From Thermaceae bacterium (GTDB taxonomy: Bacteria > Deinococcota > Deinococci > Deinococcales > Marinithermaceae): a stretch of DNA of 64,000 nt. The stretch's first letter is position 1. Every line of letters begins with the position of its first letter. The notes beneath the pieces are model-generated. The model made no database searches. It was given only the letters and a program-made list of their open reading frames with translations, and was not told the origin of the DNA. The stretch covers positions 1-64,000 of the forward strand of contig JALSRQ010000060.1 of assembly GCA_026984675.1 (NCBI GenBank), in the 5' to 3' direction. This document shows positions 45,217-46,995 of the stretch, in pieces. The position numbers and the translations under genes are program-made.

Positions 45217-45220
<4 letters not shown>
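43748..45220 (+). CDS. murJ: Lipid II flippase MurJ/MviN family
   Basis: SIARNTALMMAGTLLSRAFGLLRQAVFNNLY...FNVAFRVPNLFREILAEGAVTNALIPVL. Confidence 0.96.
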
Positions 45221-46485
<1,265 letters not shown>

Positions 46486-46505
46486 CCTCACCTCCTGGGG
46501 CCGTT

Positions 46506-46536
46506 AAAAAACCCCCGGTCCACGGGCGACCGGGGG
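46506..46536 (-). terminator. Intrinsic terminator (attenuator) upstream of aspS
   Basis: Minus CCCCCGGTC-GCCCGTG-GACCGGGGG-TTTTTT between leader ORF and aspS. Confidence 0.88.
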
Positions 46537-46554
46537 AGGCGGCTTCGCTCCCCC
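46532..46554 (-). promoter_or_regulatory. Candidate antiterminator stem in aspS leader
   Basis: Minus GGGGGAG (46554-46548) pairs CTCCCCC (46538-46532); the 3' arm overlaps the terminator 5' arm. Confidence 0.7.
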
Positions 46555-46555
46555 T

Positions 46556-46585
46556 CTAGGCGTCGTTATTGCGGCCCCACCGCAT
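46556..46585 (-). CDS. Candidate aspS attenuator leader peptide MRWGRNNDA
   Basis: ATG CGG TGG GGC CGC AAT AAC GAC GCC TAG, starting 9 nt after -10 TAAGCT; stop abuts the antiterminator. Confidence 0.7.
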   Translation of the reverse strand: MRWGRNNDA

Positions 46586-46594
46586 CTCGATGCA

Positions 46595-46624
46595 AGCTTA
46601 TGCGTTGGCTTCCCCGGGCGTCAA
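46595..46624 (-). promoter_or_regulatory. Promoter of aspS leader transcript
   Basis: Minus TTGACG (46624-46619) - 18 nt - TAAGCT (46600-46595). Confidence 0.7.
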
Positions 46625-46626
46625 GT

Positions 46627-46995
46627 CTACTGGGCGCTCTCCAGGTCCGGGCGGAGCCGGGTGGCCTCCCGCAGGTAGACGTGGCGGACGGCCTCCTGGG
46701 GCGTCTCCGTGTTCCAGAGGGCGAGCACCCGGATCACCCGGGGCAGGCTCCCGGGGACCGGAACCTCCCGGGCGGAGAGCAGGGGAACGCGGTTCATCCC
46801 CAGCTGGCGGGCGGCCTCGGCGGGGAAGGCGGAGGAGAGGTCCTCGGTGACGGTGAAGACGATGGCGGCGAGCTCCTGGTGGCTTTGAATGCCGTTGGCC
46901 TCGAGGATCGCCCGGAGCAGCTCCCGGGTGGCCGAGAGGATCGCCTCCGGGGTGTCCTCCTCGACGGTGATCGCGCCGCGTATCCCCCGCACCAT
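46627..46995 (-). CDS. aroH: Chorismate mutase (AroH type)
   Basis: MVRGIRGAITVEEDTPEAILSATRELLRAILEANGI...; AroH family. Leaderless TACAAT-6 nt-ATG. Confidence 0.93.
   Translation of the reverse strand: MVRGIRGAITVEEDTPEAILSATRELLRAILEANGIQSHQELAAIVFTVTEDLSSAFPAEAARQLGMNRVPLLSAREVPVPGSLPRVIRVLALWNTETPQEAVRHVYLREATRLRPDLESAQ

Follow-up and report, generated by a model that had tools for sequence, protein, structure and literature searches.

Leader-peptide attenuators are well known from trp, his and leu and from E. coli pheST, the last of which is also an aminoacyl-tRNA synthetase gene, and in S. meliloti the Trp sensor trpL is a leaderless leader peptide. In Thermus and Deinococcus, an extra archaeal-type aspartyl-tRNA synthetase (AspRS) makes Asp-tRNA(Asn), which GatCAB amidates, i.e., asparagine is synthesized in a tRNA-dependent manner (PMC4206432). 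The AspRS2 enzymes of T. thermophilus and D. radiodurans are known to charge tRNA(Asn) with Asp (PMC4206432). For the Asn transamidation genes of C. acetobutylicum, a two-codon T-box has been described (Saad et al. 2013, as cited in PMC4206432).

We analyzed a stretch of 64,000 nucleotides from a Thermaceae bacterium (contig JALSRQ010000060.1, positions 1 to 64,000; hereafter the window), in which the original prediction had placed an Asn/Asp leader-peptide attenuator upstream of aspS. On the minus strand, promoter, mini-ORF, antiterminator arm, intrinsic terminator, Shine-Dalgarno (SD) sequence and aspS follow each other. The promoter (46595–46624), assigned from the sequence and from relatives, consists of a −35 element TTGACG (46624–46619), an 18-nt spacer and a −10 element TAAGCT (46600–46595). 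The leader ORF (46556–46585) has its ATG 9 nt downstream of the −10 element and reads ATG CGG TGG GGC CGC AAT AAC GAC GCC TAG, i.e., MRWGRNNDA and a stop, with the regulatory codons AAT AAC GAC (Asn-Asn-Asp) at 46562–46570. After the TAG, a single A precedes the antiterminator 5′ arm GGGGGAG (46548–46554), which begins 4 nt past the first base of the stop codon. A short loop then leads into CTCCCCCGGTC-GCCCGTG-GACCGGGGG-TTTTTT, the SD sequence AGGAGG (46491–46496) and aspS (45217–46485, ATG at 46485). Within this segment lie the antiterminator 3′ arm CTCCCCC (46532–46538) and the terminator hairpin CCCCCGGTC-GCCCGTG-GACCGGGGG (46512–46536), whose arms at 46536–46528 and 46520–46512 enclose a 7-nt loop and which is followed by the U-tract TTTTTT (46506–46511). 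The CCCCC segment is used by both structures, antiterminator and terminator are hence mutually exclusive. When we re-read the window, every predicted element was found at its position, exact to the base. A 122-amino-acid ORF resembling AroH-type chorismate mutase (46627–46995, minus strand) ends 3 nt before the −35 element.

We consider it highly probable that this locus is a ribosome-mediated transcription attenuator, in which the level of AspRS2 would depend on how much Asn-tRNA(Asn) and, in second place, Asp-tRNA(Asp) is available. The ribosome would load on the 5′ AUG of the leader. With charged Asn-tRNA scarce, it would stall at AAT/AAC, GGGGGAG would stay free and pair with CTCCCCC, and the terminator 5′ arm would thereby be removed so that transcription reaches aspS. 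With Asn-tRNA plentiful, the ribosome would arrive at the stop codon and cover GGGGGAG, the terminator would form, and a transcript of about 80 nt would be released. Extra AspRS2 would produce more Asp-tRNA(Asn), from which GatCAB would make Asn-tRNA(Asn) and close the feedback loop.

The product of the window aspS is an orthologue of T. thermophilus AspRS2 (full-length matches to PDB 1n9w and 3kfu, E 2e-197) and has the HWRRDLG and KAPGG segments in common with it. The entry 3kfu is the transamidosome, in which AspRS2 is a partner. This orthology to a structurally characterized enzyme bears out the proposal that the window AspRS is archaeal-type and probably non-discriminating. AspRS1-like and AsnRS-like genes are present in the same genome, GatB is encoded elsewhere in it, and GatC is encoded in the window, as had been noted, yet gatC itself has no N/D leader; the upstream regions of gatB and AsnRS in this genome likewise lacked such a leader. 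We found no AsnA and no convincing AsnB homologue in the genome; its best match to the AsnB family (22 bits, 60 residues) was read as another PP-loop protein. With AsnA absent, no convincing AsnB and asparagine made on its tRNA, aspS is effectively an Asn-biosynthesis gene and hence behaves like a gene of amino-acid biosynthesis, for which Asn codons are a fitting sensor.

Taken alone, the window sequence makes a moderate case, and one sequence would not prove an attenuator. The window has a strong terminator hairpin (−20.6 kcal/mol, z −3.3 against shuffles), and the antiterminator match by itself was of marginal significance, with a p of about 0.08 in a shuffle test that allowed the tight loops of Meiothermus. 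The folding energy of the whole leader was no better than that of shuffled sequences (z 0.1), we therefore build no claim on it. The doubt left by a single sequence is removed by conservation: nearly all distinct leader peptides (69 of 70) have Asn, and the three-segment switch has been retained with it.

This comparison rests on a search for the aspS protein in 112 genomes of the order, of which 89 supplied upstream sequences of up to 600 nt. Taking the first ATG after a TTGAC/TA...T promoter as leader start yielded 79 leaders, and eight more came from longer upstream regions, so that 87 leaders from five families with 70 distinct peptides were obtained. A false ORF inside aspS (G110) was excluded, and two Trueperaceae contigs (G076, G110) stop within the leader. 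Metagenome-derived genomes are the majority outside Thermaceae; no Deinococcus chromosome turned up among the genomes or the fetched loci, nor did a plasmid search yield any. Orthologous leaders were present in all genera sampled. The distance from promoter to leader ATG was 7–11 nt in 77 of the 79 parsed relatives and 15 nt in the other two; with this spacing, the leader is probably translated from a leaderless start.

Adjacent Asn/Asp codons occurred in 61 of the 70 distinct peptides, compared with about 4% expected for an eight-codon peptide at a generous N+D content of 7.5%, and N/D made up only 1.9% in the other two reading frames of the same leader DNA. Leader residues other than N/D vary among relatives. 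Examples are MRWGRNNDA (window), MRWARNNNA, MRRGRNNNA and MALAASRNNDT, further MRPRLLNNG and MRLPQGNDA for Thermus, MLRADNNL and MLRTDDNS for Meiothermus, MLRRRDDNP for Calidithermus, and MMRMSASSFADDNSRARWLGA and MTHLAFSDDNSGSGRLGA for Trueperaceae. The codon counts (AAT 71, AAC 58, GAC 64, GAT 23) point to a free wobble exchange between AAT and AAC and between GAT and GAC, as expected if selection acts on amino-acid identity. Two exceptions belong to the Trueperaceae family: in one leader (L183, genome G111) the pattern is lost and one lone Asn lies far from the stem, and another (L167, genome G091) has Asp only and no Asn. The conservation of N/D codons in relatives, which the original prediction had proposed as a check, was thus found. 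Its Asn/Asp sensor nevertheless needs rewording, because the two are not equal signals: Asp occurs in only 51 of the 70 distinct peptides, 19 have Asn without Asp and a single one has Asp without Asn. Asn rather than Asp therefore appears to be the near-universal leader signal. On inspection, the balance of Asn and Asp in the leaders showed no evident correlation with the presence of AsnB.

Every parsed leader except that of G111 contains three segments, i.e., the antiterminator arm (A5) and the two terminator arms (T5 and T3). Measured from the first base of the stop codon, A5 begins at a median of +4 nt in the window's own family and in Thermaceae, and at −11 nt, within the last codons, in Trueperaceae. 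The first N/D codon precedes A5 by a median of 16 nt (own family), 13 nt (Thermaceae) or 26 nt (Trueperaceae); in the window, the first bases of AAT and AAC are 16 and 13 nt before GGGGGAG. The last N/D codon, at 10 nt from the arm, is borderline for leaving the arm uncovered. With general ribosome footprint sizes, a ribosome at the stop codon would cover A5, and one stalled at the first N/D codon would leave it free. Both distances (stop to arm at +4 or −11 nt, first N/D codon at 13–26 nt) are those of a ribosome-mediated attenuator. The proposed geometry, with a stall freeing the antiterminator and a ribosome at the stop masking GGGGGAG, hence agrees with the spacing and the three segments conserved in relatives, the ribosome positions themselves being deduced.

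The terminator covaries in three clades, namely Thermaceae together with the window's own family, Trueperaceae, and Vampirovibrionia. In each of the three, 0 of 500 shuffles reached the covariation score, which was also above all slid controls. For the antiterminator, 96% of cells were paired in Trueperaceae, where two pairs were compensated, and 82% in Vampirovibrionia, above slid controls. The Thermaceae antiterminator is conserved, but with an almost invariant G-run its covariation was no higher than that of slid controls. The expected covariation of both stems was thus obtained for the terminator in all three clades and for the antiterminator in two of them, whereas the Thermaceae antiterminator offers conservation only. 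A three-way change was found in G090, with GCTTCGGG as A5, CCCGAAGC as T5 and GCTTCGGG as T3 instead of the common CTCGGGG/CCCCGAG. N/D codons and paired stems, whose lack of conservation would have spoken against an attenuator, are both conserved in relatives, and we conclude that the comparative evidence strongly supports the attenuator interpretation.

The final step of the switch may differ between lineages. A U-tract follows the hairpin in all 11 leaders of the window's own family and in all 18 of Meiothermus, and most Trueperaceae and Vampirovibrionia have clear U-tracts as well. Only 4 of 26 Thermus leaders (L114–L131, L133–L140, L164) have one, and their median is 2 T in the 8 nt after the hairpin. 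With 22 of 26 species lacking the U-tract, ordinary intrinsic termination is impossible as the last step in Thermus. Ordinary T-tract terminators do exist in this genus (8 of 188 hairpins compared with 1 of 130 in the control), and about 20 nt separate the end of the Thermus hairpin, which abuts the SD sequence, from the aspS start codon. This suggests, but does not prove, that the Thermus switch has changed from transcriptional to translational or U-less control. One might extend this reading and assume that leader-peptide control is real, but that the hairpin generally blocks 30S access to aspS or acts without a U-tract, above all in Thermus. We regard this as improbable for the locus as a whole, given the clear U-tracts in the window lineage, Meiothermus, most Trueperaceae and Vampirovibrionia and an aspS SD sequence that itself lies outside the hairpin.

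Other explanations dispense with the leader peptide. E. coli ThrRS represses its own mRNA by binding to the leader and other synthetases autoregulate too, AspRS2 could hence repress aspS in the same way, with N/D codons being incidental. What is conserved, however, is the identity of in-frame codons with free wobble just before the stop, whereas loop and stem sequences vary and no tRNA-like fold was found, which makes autoregulation very unlikely. Still less can be said for a T-box-like, tRNA-sensing leader. It would have precedents in the T-boxes that aspS homologues carry in Firmicutes and Ktedonobacteria, but neither an RF00230 match nor the T-box bulge motif was found at the window locus, 12 Deinococcota relatives were equally without an Rfam match, and a leader of about 80 nt is too short; we take the T-box as refuted by sequence. 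We give the same negligible weight to an ordinary terminator of the upstream gene combined with a chance mini-ORF. That gene does end just before the promoter, but the promoter sits between it and the hairpin, and leader and switch accompany aspS even where the sequence further upstream is not related, so that the comparative data refute this explanation. A ribosome-mediated attenuator that responds to Asn-tRNA supply remains our preferred reading.

Similar leaders occur in other phyla. In Vampirovibrionia (Melainabacteria; the class of G112; L198–L227), all 30 aspS upstream regions have Asn/Asp runs, the longest comprising 10 N/D codons. In 29 of 30, three or more N/D codons follow one another within an ORF, e.g., MSAFIINNNNNDDNNNHVLRLFPHVLVITH, compared with 1 of 30 in the reverse-strand control; the thirtieth (L215) has NNNNDDD with no ATG in range. 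Nearly all of them have A5 (e.g., CTTGCGGT), T5 (ACCGCAAG) and T3 (CTTGCGGT), usually with a U-tract. An Anaerolineae genome (L247, ...GANNNDNPNGLWRRPAI) has a similar leader. D-rich mini-ORFs were also seen upstream of archaeal-type aspS in a proteobacterium-labelled genome (L081, MDNDDDDDVRRRR) and, with weaker likeness, in one of Myxococcales (L106, MDPDDTSHDRKGRAA).

Among Chloroflexota, three or more N/D codons stand in a row in 20 of 30 regions, compared with 0 of 30 in the control. In most of these, mainly Ktedonobacteria, a T-box motif lies further upstream, which Rfam confirmed at the tested loci (E 2e-11 to 1e-4). The ends of the Ktedonobacteria leaders pair with a downstream segment, and no U-tract follows. 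At eight aspS loci of the Ktedonobacteria type (L228, L229, L231, L233, L238, L240, L243, L245), the one mRNA appears to be under tandem control, with a T-box preceding a D/N-rich leader ORF (e.g., MDSDDNDREEDTW). In Firmicutes, nine of the scanned loci have T-boxes above the gathering score, and T-box-like motifs were recognized by eye upstream of aspS in Actinobacteria. Archaeal-type aspS copies on actinobacterial plasmids or large replicons (L194, L195, L196) have T-box-like GGTGGCACC motifs just upstream.

In the AspRS tree, the leader groups of Deinococcota and Vampirovibrionia each form one clade and are not sisters, which fits separate origins; an ancestral leader with losses would also be compatible. 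We lean towards the view that non-discriminating aspS came under, or retained, Asn-sensing leader attenuation independently in Deinococcota and Vampirovibrionia, perhaps in Anaerolineae and Myxococcota too, that this control is to leader peptides what the Asn T-box is to T-boxes, and that Ktedonobacteria stack a T-box and a D/N leader switch on one mRNA.

As the original prediction had surmised, such a leader is not a standard annotation. With Rfam release 15, no cis-regulatory family scored above the gathering threshold in the window or in 12 Deinococcota relatives, and weak matches such as snoR9 were dismissed as chance. In the literature searched, neither an Asn/Asp leader peptide nor attenuation of aspS was described for these phyla, although a 2010 comparative survey of attenuation in synthetase operons (Lopatovskaya et al., as cited in PMC4833913) could contain a prediction. 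If our reading is correct, the supply of asparaginyl-tRNA would here for the first time be sensed by a leader peptide, asparagine would join the amino acids detected in this way, and the Ktedonobacteria loci would be the first case of tandem T-box and leader-peptide control of one synthetase. Control of aspS by Asn codons could explain how the AsnRS and AspRS2/GatCAB routes to Asn-tRNA are balanced, and the same regulatory problem would be met by T-boxes or by leader peptides, depending on the phylum. Thermus and Meiothermus are culturable and Thermus is genetically tractable, the attenuator is therefore directly testable.

The mechanism itself is classical attenuation. As in pheST, trp, his and leu, a short ORF containing codons of the amino acid produced precedes mutually exclusive antiterminator and terminator structures. 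Unlike these systems, the aspS leader would sense Asn, together with Asp, for tRNA-dependent Asn synthesis; it is probably leaderless, very short and in Deinococcota has only two to three regulatory codons, and it lies on a different gene in unrelated phyla. With S. meliloti trpL it shares a leader ORF at the transcript 5′ end without an SD sequence, but trpL senses Trp and has a different target. The two-codon T-box of C. acetobutylicum, as portrayed in the paper citing it, also controls the non-discriminating AspRS/GatCAB route by tRNA(Asn) charging and has a second specificity, but in this Firmicutes system the RNA binds uncharged tRNA directly and no leader peptide is involved. The T-box (RF00230) leaders of archaeal-type aspS in Firmicutes, Actinobacteria and Ktedonobacteria share the target gene and the physiological signal with the leader described here, but their sensor is unrelated, and in Ktedonobacteria they are located upstream of a D/N-rich leader ORF. 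What is new are hence the amino acid sensed, the gene, the leaderless format with two to three codons, the recurrence across phyla and the pairing with T-boxes.
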